From contig CAJXMG010000017.1 in NCBI GenBank assembly GCA_913056395.1, positions 1 to 58,614 of the forward strand: DNA of 58,614 nt. The letters are read 5' to 3'. The notes beneath the pieces are model-generated. The model did no database searches, was not told the DNA's origin, and saw nothing but the letters and a program-made list of their open reading frames with translations. Of the stretch, positions 22,800-27,318 are shown one piece after another (the first letter of the stretch is position 1; the number at the start of each line of letters is the position of its first letter). A program made the translations under genes and the position numbers. The stretch is from an uncultured bacterium. GTDB taxonomy: Bacteria > Planctomycetota > UBA8108 > UBA1146.

Positions 22800-23399
22800 C
22801 TAACTGCGGCGGCTGGCCAGTCGCACCAGATCTTCGGCAACCAATTCCGAGTCGGGAGACTCCGCAACGATTCTGCGGACCCGCTCCTGAGCCTCACTGA
22901 GGGGAAAGCCGAGGACCTGAAGCGCTCTCACGGCGTCAGCGGCCGGCCCCTCCGGCACACCCACCGTGGCAGGGCTTCCGGCGGAAGCGACCAGATCCTC
23001 TTTCTCAAGGGCCCCACGAAGATCGAGGACGATTCGCTGGGCAGTCTTTTTACCGATCCCTTTGACCTTCTCCAGTACGCCACTCTCCCCTTCGAGAACC
23101 GCGTTCTTGAAATTGTCGGGCTCGATATGGGAGAGCAGTGCCAGGGCGGATGCGGGCCCAACCCCGGAGACCTGACACAGTCGCTCAAAGAGGTCGCGCT
23201 CCTCCGGTTGGGAGAATCCGTAAAAATGCATCTGGTCATCGCGGATACGATGGGAGAGGAACAACCGGGCCGAACTGCCTTCCCGCAACTTGGAAAGGGT
23301 CGCCGATGGAGATTTCAGGGAGTAACCCACACCGGCAACGTCAAGTGTGACGCTGTCAGCCAGGATTCGAATGACTTCTCCGGAGAGGTATTCGTACAC
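22800..23399 (-). CDS. ruvA: Holliday junction branch migration protein RuvA
   Basis: Protein of 199 residues, the usual RuvA length. The N-terminal OB-fold begins YEYLSGEVIRIL and contains VAGVGYSL and FYGFSQPEERDLFERL. The two helix-hairpin-helix units follow (VSGVGPASALALLS and VKGIGKKTAQRIVLDL), and the C-terminal third domain (EAQERVRRIV) closes it. RuvA forms tetramers on Holliday junctions and guides the RuvB motor. The start appears to be GTG at 23399 preceded by AGGGG. Only 9 bp separate it from the upstream TPR gene, so the two are probably one transcript. Neither ruvB nor ruvC is in the window. Confidence 0.95.
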   Translation of the reverse strand: MYEYLSGEVIRILADSVTLDVAGVGYSLKSPSATLSKLREGSSARLFLSHRIRDDQMHFYGFSQPEERDLFERLCQVSGVGPASALALLSHIEPDNFKNAVLEGESGVLEKVKGIGKKTAQRIVLDLRGALEKEDLVASAGSPATVGVPEGPAADAVRALQVLGFPLSEAQERVRRIVAESPDSELVAEDLVRLASRRS

Positions 23400-23408
23400 G
23401 TCCCCTGC

Positions 23409-24689
23409 TTATCCTCTGGTCAGATCCAGACCCCGCTCGGTGAGCTTGCGCTTGACCTCATTCAGGGAAGTGACCCCGAAATTTTTCTGGCTCACCAGTT
23501 CGAGTTCATTGCGCTGCAACAGATCGGCGATGGTTTCAATCCCCAGACGGTCCATGCAACGCTGACTGCGGCTGGAGAGTTCGAGGATACTGACCGGCTC
23601 TCCGAGGAGTGCCTGGGCCTCACTGTCCATTCCCAGAAGAGAGGTCTCGCTGCGCTGGGAACTCTCACCAAGACGAAGATTCTTCTGATTCAGAATCTTG
23701 CGAATCTCCTGAAGGCTGGTCTCGCCAAAGTTCTTGTAGGAGAGCAGTTCAGCCTCAGTCTTGGACACGAGGTCACCCAGGGTATGGATGCCCATCTTCT
23801 GTAGGCAGTTACGGCTGCGCACCGAAAGTTCAAACTCGGTGACAGGAATCTGCAGGACCTGACCCATGCGGACCTTTTCCTTTTCCTTGTCACGGTCGTA
23901 GAACATCGACTGGGAAGCCTCGGCATCCCGCAAATACAACTGGGCCCTGCGGTGATCCGGATTGGAAAGCAACACCATCCTGTAGCAGGTGATGGCTTCC
24001 TCATAACGATCTGCATCTTCGTAAAGCACGCCCAGATTGATCATTGCACGGGCGTAAAGGGGCGCACTGCGCTGGCACATGCGGTAGGCCTCGATCGCCA
24101 ATTCCTCGTCACCGTAAAGGGAGTGCATGTATCCGAGGCGGAACTGGAAGCGTGTTTCCTCAGGTCGTCCCTCCGCTGCAGTGGAGTAGTACTGCAGGGC
24201 CTCGTCGTAGTCTCCCTCATGCTGATGCAAAAGACCCTCGAGGTAACAGATGCGCGGGTGATCGACGGAATCCGGAAGTTTCGCCAGAAGCTCTCTGGCC
24301 TCCTCAATACGATGCTCATGAATCATCGCCTCACAGAGGAGCATGCCGATGCGTGGGTAGTTTCCGCCATGGGCTGCCCATCCCCCCTCGAGAACCTGAA
24401 GGGCTTCCTTGGAGTTGCCCTCTTCAAGGCTGAGTTTTCCAAGAAGATGGATACACAGGGGATTGGAACTGCAATTGCGAAGGAGGTTTTTGGCTTCCTC
24501 CCTGTTACCCAGAAGATCCTGGGCAACCGCCCTGCGGAAATCGTCCTGAATCTCTTCAACCAGATTTTCCAACTCGTCGATCGCTTCACGACGGGAAGTC
24601 ACACCCTGACGAACTTCGTGATAGAAGTCGACGTGGGTCTCTTTGTTGAGAATCAATTCGCGAATGTTGAAATCGTCCTGAACTTCCAA
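23409..24689 (-). CDS. TPR protein with two C-terminal RNA polymerase alpha-CTD-like domains
   Basis: Protein of 426 residues. Residues ~30-260 are TPR helices (EGLLHQHEGDYDEALQYYSTAAEG, LGVLYEDADRYEEAITCYRMVL). Residues 281-340 and 365-425 are two copies of a domain that matches the helix-hairpin-helix alpha-CTD of RNA polymerase: LSVRSRNCLQKMGIHTLGDL with KNFGETSLQEI in the first, LSSRSQRCMDRLGIETIADL with KNFGVTSLNEV in the second. In RpoA this domain binds UP-element DNA, sigma region 4 and activators. No alpha N-terminal (assembly) domain is present, so this is not RpoA. TTG 24689 is supported by AGGAGG 4 nt upstream. A role at promoters or as a polymerase-interacting adaptor is inferred. 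The gene precedes ruvA by 9 bp. Confidence 0.85.
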   Translation of the reverse strand: MEVQDDFNIRELILNKETHVDFYHEVRQGVTSRREAIDELENLVEEIQDDFRRAVAQDLLGNREEAKNLLRNCSSNPLCIHLLGKLSLEEGNSKEALQVLEGGWAAHGGNYPRIGMLLCEAMIHEHRIEEARELLAKLPDSVDHPRICYLEGLLHQHEGDYDEALQYYSTAAEGRPEETRFQFRLGYMHSLYGDEELAIEAYRMCQRSAPLYARAMINLGVLYEDADRYEEAITCYRMVLLSNPDHRRAQLYLRDAEASQSMFYDRDKEKEKVRMGQVLQIPVTEFELSVRSRNCLQKMGIHTLGDLVSKTEAELLSYKNFGETSLQEIRKILNQKNLRLGESSQRSETSLLGMDSEAQALLGEPVSILELSSRSQRCMDRLGIETIADLLQRNELELVSQKNFGVTSLNEVKRKLTERGLDLTRG

Positions 24690-25050
24690 CTTGCCTCCTG
24701 AGGGGAAAGAACGGCACCAGTCAAGTTACAGCCCCGGACTGCTTCACCCGCTCCTCGGGCAAACTCGTCAACTGATCGGGGAAGTGTCGCCCGCTTCGTA
24801 ATGGGATTCCACACTTCCTGGTCGTCGGAAACGGAATCTTGCCGAAATCGGGGCGCTGGCAATCTGGAATCATAAATAGGACGCCGGGGCCCGTCAACTT
24901 GATCAGAAGCCCCGCATCTCCCTTGTATACGCCCAATTTGGGAGTAACCATGCAGATTCACCAACAGTGACACCCCATGGGAACCCGGTGAGGCCCCTCC
25001 ACCCCCAATTGTGAGAGCCGCTTGAGGTTTGAAAGGCGAGGCAGACCCGC
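24690..25050. other. Divergent intergenic region
   Basis: About 360 bp between the minus-strand TPR gene and the plus-strand helicase. Both promoters should lie here. Several minus-strand frames cross it but none shows a recognisable protein or a plausible ribosome site. I see no RNA gene or long inverted repeat. Confidence 0.5.
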
Positions 25051-27318
25051 ATGAGCAACGGACTGAATCCGGCACAGGAAAAGGCGGTCTCCCACCACGA
25101 AGGGCCACTCGTTGTCGTCGCAGGACCGGGCAGTGGCAAGACTCGCGTCATGACCCACCGCATTGCGAGCATGGTCCGTGCAGGGATAGAACCCAGCTCC
25201 ATCCTGGCGATTACTTTCACAAACAAGGCTGCAGAAGAGATGCTCAGGAGAACCCTGGAGCTTCTGGCGATTCCCGAAGCCAACGATTTCAGCGGTCACG
25301 GTTTCTTTGGGTCCTCTGCTCTCGGCCTCGAGGATGATCGACCGGTACTGAGAACCTTTCACTCCTTTTGTGCAAGACTGCTTCGAAGGCACGCCCATCG
25401 TCTCGAGCCCTACACCAGCAGTTTCTCCATCTATGACTCGGCAGACCAGAAACAGGTCATCACCGAAGTCATGAAAGAAATGAAACTGGATCGAACTTCC
25501 TTCCCACCCCGGGCAACCCAGTCGACGATCAGTCACTGGAAAAACCAGATGATCAGCCCCGAGTTGGCTGCAGAGCAGGCGGGAACTTTTAAGGATCGTG
25601 AGCTGGCCAAGATTTACGCCCGCTATCAGGAACTCCTCGAAGAGCAGGACGCTGCGGACTTCGATGATCTGCTGTTGCTGGTCGTCCGCCTGCTCACCGA
25701 ACAGGAAGATGTTCTTCTGCGCCTGCAACAACACTTTCGATACGTCATGATCGATGAGTTTCAGGATACCAACCGTCCGCAATACCTGATCGCCAAACTG
25801 CTCTCAGGCCAGCATCGCAATCTTTGCGTCACCGGGGATCCGGATCAGTCGATCTATTCCTGGCGTGGAGCCAGCCCCGACAATTTCCTTCGTTTCCGGG
25901 AAGACTTCCCTGAGCACAATGTTGTCACCCTCGAGCAAAACTATCGCTCCACCCCCCAGATCCTTGAAGTGGCTTCAAGACTCTCCGGTACCGAGTTCGG
26001 TCACAGAGAATTGTTCACTGAGAATGCTGACGGTTCCTCAGTCAGAGTTCAGCTGGTCCATGATGAACGGGCAGAAGCCCGCAGAATCGCAGATCATGTC
26101 GAGGACTGGATGGCGGAAGGAGTCTCCAGCGATGAAATCGCTGTGCTTTATCGAGTGAACTCACTTTCGAGGGTGATCGAAGAAGAGTTCGTGCGTCGTC
26201 GCCTCAAGTATGCCGTTGTCGGCGGCATGTCCTTCTACGAGCGAAAAGAGGTCAAGGACATCCTCGCTTATCTGAGAGCAGCCCGTTCTACCCGTGACGA
26301 CGTTGCCTTGCAGAGGATCGTCAATACTCCTGCAAGGGGTATCGGAAAGGTCAGCCTGGAGAAGTTTCAGGATGATGCCCTCGCCCATGGCAGGACGATG
26401 GGTGAGCACCTGCGCAGATCTGACTGTACCGATGGGATCCGCGGAAAAGCTCGCAAGGGTCTTGAGCATCTTCGGGAAGTGATCGAACAACTGGAGGACC
26501 GGCTTTCCGGTGGACTGGCTGACATGGTTGAGCAGGCCATCGAGGCCAGCGGCTACCTGGCCCATTTGGAAAAATCGGAACCGGAAAGCTGGCAAGAGCG
26601 GGAACGCAACCTGCAGGAACTTGTGGCAGCAGCAGCGGAAACGGAAGAGATTCTCGATCAGGCCCTACAGCAATCCAACGCTGAAGAGGGAGAAGTCCCG
26701 GATCCCCTGACCATCTTCCTTGAACGCATCGCTCTGGTTTCGGATGCCGAATCGGATGATCAGATGCGGGGCAAAGTCTCGATGATGACCTTGCATGCCG
26801 CCAAGGGACTCGAGTTTCGCAAGGTGATGATCGCCGGTGTGGAGGAAACTCTGATCCCCCACTCACGCCATGGTGAGATCGAGGGCATCGACGAAGAAAA
26901 GCGCCTCTTGTACGTGGGAGTGACCAGAGCCATGGAAGAACTGATTCTCACACATACCTCCTGGCGCCGTCGTTTTCAGGATCGGGAACCGCGACTCCCC
27001 TCCTCCTTCCTGGCAGATCTTGAAGGCACTTCAATTGAGTTCGACCGCAAGCCCGGAGCACGCACTTCCGTCTCTGAAAACGTGTGGGACCCCGAACCCG
27101 AATACCACCATGATTCGGAAGAGGATGACGGTTTGCACCCGGGTGCATGGGTCCACCATGAATTGCTCGGTCGAGGCTGTGTCAATGCTGTACAGGGATA
27201 TGGTGCAGCGAGGCGCATTACGGTGAGATTTGAAAATGGTGATGAGAGGCAATTGGTTGTGGCTTACGCTCCTCTCTCAGTGATTTCACCTCCGGATGAG
27301 GAGTGGGAAGCATGCTGA
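25051..27318 (+). CDS. pcrA: ATP-dependent 3'-5' DNA helicase, UvrD/PcrA family
   Basis: Superfamily 1A helicase of 755 residues with all canonical motifs in order: Q motif LNPAQ, Walker A GPGSGKT (25-31), motif II DEFQDTN, motif III GDPDQSIYSWRGA, motif IV EQNYRST, motif V MTLHAAKGLEF, motif VI LLYVGVTRA. The C-terminal ~60 residues (PGAWVHHELLGRGCV ... ITVRFENGDERQLVV) form the Tudor-like domain found in PcrA/UvrD, which contacts RNA polymerase. It unwinds DNA in repair and in clearing of stalled polymerases or recombinase filaments. The stop overlaps the ATG of the next gene by 7 nt, so the two are likely co-translated although functionally unrelated. Confidence 0.93.
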   Translation: MSNGLNPAQEKAVSHHEGPLVVVAGPGSGKTRVMTHRIASMVRAGIEPSSILAITFTNKAAEEMLRRTLELLAIPEANDFSGHGFFGSSALGLEDDRPVLRTFHSFCARLLRRHAHRLEPYTSSFSIYDSADQKQVITEVMKEMKLDRTSFPPRATQSTISHWKNQMISPELAAEQAGTFKDRELAKIYARYQELLEEQDAADFDDLLLLVVRLLTEQEDVLLRLQQHFRYVMIDEFQDTNRPQYLIAKLLSGQHRNLCVTGDPDQSIYSWRGASPDNFLRFREDFPEHNVVTLEQNYRSTPQILEVASRLSGTEFGHRELFTENADGSSVRVQLVHDERAEARRIADHVEDWMAEGVSSDEIAVLYRVNSLSRVIEEEFVRRRLKYAVVGGMSFYERKEVKDILAYLRAARSTRDDVALQRIVNTPARGIGKVSLEKFQDDALAHGRTMGEHLRRSDCTDGIRGKARKGLEHLREVIEQLEDRLSGGLADMVEQAIEASGYLAHLEKSEPESWQERERNLQELVAAAAETEEILDQALQQSNAEEGEVPDPLTIFLERIALVSDAESDDQMRGKVSMMTLHAAKGLEFRKVMIAGVEETLIPHSRHGEIEGIDEEKRLLYVGVTRAMEELILTHTSWRRRFQDREPRLPSSFLADLEGTSIEFDRKPGARTSVSENVWDPEPEYHHDSEEDDGLHPGAWVHHELLGRGCVNAVQGYGAARRITVRFENGDERQLVVAYAPLSVISPPDEEWEAC

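Follow-up and report, generated by a model that had tools for sequence, protein, structure and literature searches.

A planctomycete TPR protein with two RNA polymerase alpha C-terminal domains

The window, by which we mean the whole stretch of 58,614 nucleotides that was analysed, carries on its reverse strand a gene for a protein in which a TPR array is followed by a conserved linker and two copies of the C-terminal domain of the RNA polymerase alpha subunit (alphaCTD), here called CTD1 and CTD2. Nine of its ten nearest homologues (L004-L011 and L013) are also 426 residues long, and the tenth (L012) has 427. The gap of 9 bp to ruvA was given correctly in the preliminary description. On the other side, a gene for a UvrD-type helicase (25051-27318, plus strand) runs divergently, an arrangement conserved in the window's own class. 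A search for sigma70-like promoters found two matches, against 0.6 expected. The features of the locus are as follows.

22800-23399, minus strand: ruvA, 9 bp downstream, belonging to the ancestral gene cluster and separate from the TPR-alphaCTD protein; PF01330 RuvA_N, 4e-16, and synteny
23409-24689, minus strand: TPR-alphaCTD gene, an open reading frame of the window; 426 aa, TTG start
23415-23624, minus strand: CTD2, residues about 356-425; PF03118, 66.4 bits, and residue table; R265, S299 and E302 present, Arg at position 268 instead of Asn
23667-23882, minus strand: CTD1, residues 270-341; PF03118, 85 bits, residue table, hhalign and fold; 265 and 261 determinants intact
23883-23951, minus strand: conserved linker, residues 247-269, DAxASxxMxYDED; identity across the phylum
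23952-24539, minus strand: TPR array, residues 51-246; Pfam TPR families, and PDB TPR structures by sequence and fold
24694-24699, minus strand: Shine-Dalgarno sequence AGGAGG, 4 nt ahead of the TTG start codon; identified by direct reading
24869-24897, minus strand: candidate sigma70-like promoter match TTGACG-17-TATGAT, 10 of 12 positions

The N-terminal half scores above the Pfam cut-offs for TPR_1, 2, 8 and 19, shows the tandem 34-residue helix-turn-helix repeats of a TPR protein, and is modelled as a helical array with a pLDDT of about 90. A structure search with the model of the whole 426-aa protein returned TPR proteins only, among the matches listed. No TM-like segment was seen in the window protein (maximum 19-residue hydropathy 0.8) and, with no hydrophobic segment, a membrane or exported protein was ruled out; given the absence of membrane signals, the protein is predicted to be cytosolic.

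The preliminary description had read the C-terminal half as two RpoA-type alphaCTDs, and profile, fold and contact residues all bear this out. PF03118 (RNA_pol_A_CTD) matches two stretches with 140 bits in total (E 1.4e-41), well beyond the Pfam cut-off of 23.8. When PF03118 was run across the protein's own genome, CTD1 scored 85 bits (7.6e-24) and CTD2 66.4 bits (4.9e-18); the canonical RpoA reached 83.6 bits with its CTD. The alternative of a generic HhH identity was rejected, HHH_5 matching only marginally (E 0.023). Aligned with hhalign, E. coli RpoA and the C-terminal half share 43% identity over 74 columns (E 4.3e-18). The AlphaFold model of this half, of moderate confidence (pLDDT 76), has the alphaCTD fold of the PF03118 family and superimposes in Foldseek on solved alphaCTDs at 0.7-1.6 A rmsd, including those bound to DNA (9zum), to sigma4 and DNA (3n97), and to CAP, Spx and AfsR.

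The domain for dimerisation and RNAP assembly that forms the N-terminal part of RpoA is missing here. It had been proposed that TPRs replace it, and the Pfam TPR models agree, as do the NCBIfam rpoA equivalog models, which match the CTD alone and stay far under cut-off (125 vs 227.8 bits). The protein shares with RpoA the PF03118 domain family, the fold and, in CTD1, the residues that contact DNA and sigma; without the alpha NTD, however, it would not enter RNAP assembly by that route. A separate RpoA with both NTD and CTD is encoded at G000:C40 (L002), and the window protein is thus not the genome's only alpha. This second gene, together with the near-universality of the family in the phylum, rules out a truncated or misassembled RpoA.

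AlphaCTD modules outside RpoA are present in profile libraries, so the kind is already known. Segments of this type occur in the BREX kinase PglW (NCBIfam NF033442, PADLOC PDLC02512), with weak matches to the CTDs (7e-9 and 6e-10), but PglW is a far larger kinase from a phage-defence system and the TPR-alphaCTD gene has no such context. The NCBIfam family PRK07758 (NF005841) is a stand-alone alphaCTD-like protein of about 95 aa (E 3.3e-11) which, unlike ours, has a single domain and no TPRs, and for which a phylum-wide spread is not established; an ORF of 112 aa at L128:1235-1573 (minus strand) in one planctomycete, with PF03118 at 1.9e-17, is likewise a stand-alone alphaCTD. The RNAP beta' model PRK14906 (NF011498) has an alphaCTD-like segment near its C-terminus, which presents the alphaCTD as a movable module, although in a polymerase subunit without TPRs. 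A phage or defence origin was ruled out, PHROGs giving no match, no viral contig carrying a relative, and the PADLOC match being a weak one to PglW through the shared domain. In the literature searched, which mostly lies outside the subscription journals, nothing relevant to the TPR-alphaCTD architecture was found. What is new here is a near-universal, TPR-fused alphaCTD copy that is more conserved than alpha's own.

The distribution of the family was surveyed with an 11-member alignment as query in 294 Planctomycetota genomes from 206 genera and 68 families, all with a completeness of 90% or more. A full-length relative is present in 291 of the 294 (E about 1e-71 or better), and in a 292nd, G083, a contig end interrupts the gene, which explains its apparent absence there. 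The other two genomes (G023 and G149), both fragmented and about 90% complete, yielded only an RpoA-like CTD. Almost all genomes contain at least three alphaCTD matches by Pfam count, as expected for RpoA plus the two described here. A scan of genome contigs gave 222 loci, of which the best 80 are nearly all labelled Planctomycetota or subgroups; the few labelled Bacillota, Proteobacteria, Nealsonbacteria or plain bacterium may be misnamed bins. In plasmid records no locus covered as much as 80% of the protein. We conclude that the TPR-alphaCTD gene is a phylum-wide core gene of Planctomycetota.

Some further alphaCTD genes came up in these searches. One genome (G269) has two strong full-length copies of the TPR-alphaCTD gene, on contigs C62 and C4, and several genomes have four to six alphaCTD matches, so that further free alphaCTD proteins may exist. 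A small alphaCTD frame at G294:C22 was rejected as a separate protein, since an L17-like sequence also lies at that locus and the frame looks like rpoA itself cut short. An extra full-length RpoA gene is carried by a plasmid of Streptomyces sp. NBC_00316 (L192), with similar matches on other Streptomyces plasmids.

In the E. coli alphaCTD the residues that contact DNA and sigma are established. We tabulated the corresponding positions, in E. coli alpha numbering, in 129 non-redundant homologues and scored 28 planctomycete RpoAs beside them. The 265 determinant, that is the residues contacting the DNA minor groove, is intact in CTD1, with R265 in 100% of homologues, N268 in 98%, C269 in 99%, and G296, S299 and E302 in 100%; at the sigma-contact positions E261 is found in 100% and Asp or Glu at 259 in 89%. 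R265, N268 and E261 correspond to R291, N294 and E287 in the protein's own numbering. A total loss of DNA- and sigma-contact residues is thereby excluded. The domains are neither generic HhH domains nor stripped of these contacts, the two outcomes which the preliminary description had named as contrary to its reading. E286 and L290, which together with 259 and 261 face activators or sigma, are strongly kept. Position 298 is Thr (K298T) in every CTD1 and likewise in all 28 planctomycete RpoAs scored. Four further residues are fixed specifically in CTD1, namely F260, R267, K293 and E297, the last being present in 98% of CTD1 sequences where planctomycete RpoAs mostly have Lys (75%), a reversal of charge that could weaken DNA binding by CTD1. 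Because E297, R267 and F260 are fixed unlike in RpoA, CTD1 is a specialised domain and not a copy.

The strength of this constraint is apparent from mean pairwise identities across eight families, which are 72% for CTD1, 57% for the CTD and 59% for the NTD of RpoA (both taken from the same eight-family genomes), 44% for CTD2 and 32% for the TPRs. Next to the CTDs in conservation come the last TPR and the linker (44-46%; residues 247-279 at 46% phylum-wide). CTD2 keeps R265, S299 and E302 in nearly all members, S299 being lost in three and R265 in one. Of the 265 determinant it has R, G, S and E without N268, and in 97% of homologues position 268 is Lys or Arg. The protein ends after CTD1 in G066 (L201, G066:C1:1874156-1874341, a single-contig genome) and in G202 (L197, G202:C69), so that CTD2 is missing in at least two lineages in which CTD1 is intact. 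From its looser conservation and natural absence we regard CTD2 as accessory and CTD1 as the constrained core. The two copies had been described as diverged, which their 47% identity over 59 residues confirms, but they are not of equal standing.

In a tree of 93 CTDs built on an alignment of only 63 columns, the CTD1 sequences group as a single clade (100/95), and together with CTD2 they are set apart from the RpoA CTDs (97/96). An alternative tree joining CTD1 to the planctomycete RpoA CTDs was not rejected (p 0.655) and its likelihood was above that of the free search. A single old origin of CTD1, preceding the split of the sampled families, is well supported. An old duplication behind the tandem CTDs is plausible, the alternative being two captures.

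The contact residues of CTD1 bear on the possibility that the protein is a decoy or anti-activator, whose alphaCTD would titrate activators or Spx-like factors off the CTD of RpoA and so lower or buffer activation, any DNA binding being incidental. The strong retention of E286, L290 and positions 259 and 261, an alphaCTD with no attachment to RNAP, and the match of the C-terminal model to alphaCTDs in complex with Spx, CAP and AfsR would fit such a role. A pure protein decoy, however, would hardly need DNA-contact residues kept at 98-100%, and near-universality suggests a housekeeping role; we consider a decoy unlikely.

The gene neighbourhood had led to the suggestion of a DNA-repair link. 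Among 39 loci from across the phylum, 26 have ruvA as the next same-strand gene, usually no more than about 60 bp away, and in several ruvB comes after it; in most of the remaining 13 spoIID or tgt follows, and three have none of these. Longer runs read ruvA-ruvB-queH-spoIID-tgt-yajC(-secDF), with the genes verified by Pfam. In a Pirellulales-rich set, the best 80 of the 222 genome-contig loci, tgt is next in 52, and in most Pirellulales loci as well as in many other families the site lacks ruvA and has tgt or spoIID in its place. Upstream, 7 of the 39 loci (L136, L141, L145, L160, L164, L165 and L166) have an opposite-strand MurA-like gene, so named from a reading of its sequence. From the order of ruvA, spoIID and tgt across the 39 loci we take the TPR-alphaCTD gene to be the first in an old cluster of housekeeping genes. 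The linkage to ruvA in the window's lineage is therefore real and old, but as this is a general cluster from which ruvA is absent at other loci, it is no specific argument for repair, and the proposed link stands as adjacency and is otherwise weak.

A recombination or repair adaptor, in which the alphaCTD pair would act as an HhH-like minor-groove clamp with RuvAB on Holliday junctions, draws on these ruvA and ruvB neighbours and on the divergent UvrD helicase of the window's class. It is rather improbable, given the many families without ruvA at the site, a downstream set that mixes recombination with queuosine, SpoIID, YajC and SecDF, and an invariant sigma-facing E261 which repair does not explain. 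The presence of tgt, queH, yajC and secDF among the linked genes, and the generic use of TPR proteins as scaffolds, could instead speak for an adaptor outside transcription that binds RNA, the ribosome or a protein, for instance in tRNA modification or transcription-translation coupling, with the likeness to alphaCTD reflecting origin only. Here the DNA- and sigma-contact positions of CTD1 are the obstacle, being almost fully retained when CTD2, which has drifted, exemplifies what relaxed constraint looks like, and we hold such a role to be improbable.

The reading that we favour, with a modest degree of confidence, is that of a cytosolic transcription cofactor which would bring to promoters an additional alphaCTD, next to sigma, while its TPRs bind a partner. 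Three things support it: the DNA- and sigma-facing surfaces have been retained, the constraint is exceptional, and membrane signals are absent. In this cofactor model the R265-type face of CTD1 would bind upstream of the -35 region, in the minor groove of A/T-rich DNA, as an alphaCTD does in RNA polymerase, and the 259/261 face would contact sigma region 4 or an activator, CTD1 acting in trans and not as part of the polymerase. A protein partner, either RNAP itself or a regulator, would be bound by the TPR array together with the conserved linker, and the promoter would gain an alphaCTD on top of the enzyme's own two; CTD2, as the accessory copy, would probably add avidity or spacing. We infer promoter binding, sigma binding, action in trans, a TPR partner and the direction of the effect. 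Once freed from RNAP, alphaCTDs have only a weak affinity for DNA, so the model needs a tether. In its favour we count the contact residues, the near-universality, the CTD1 clade, the fold match to 9zum and 3n97 and the loss of CTD2 with CTD1 intact; against it stand E297 and neighbours whose roles are in recombination, tRNA modification and secretion and not in transcription.

A more far-reaching version, which we put forward only tentatively and think doubtful, is a phylum-specific and possibly essential general initiation factor, a trans-acting extra alphaCTD that would provide a dedicated promoter contact more conserved than the polymerase's own. A transposon essentiality map has been published for Planctopirus limnophila (PMC10632474); on essentiality, its main text names the RNAP subunits alone.

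Almost the whole phylum thus has a separate alphaCTD-bearing protein, under a constraint stronger than that on RpoA's CTD. Bacterial gene activation has its classic docking point in the alphaCTD, a domain viewed as a part of RNA polymerase. Decades of work on the E. coli alphaCTD provide ready assays for the planctomycete protein, such as R265-type mutants, UP-element footprinting and sigma4 contacts. If it is active at promoters, the promoter logic of Planctomycetota would differ from that of textbook bacteria.
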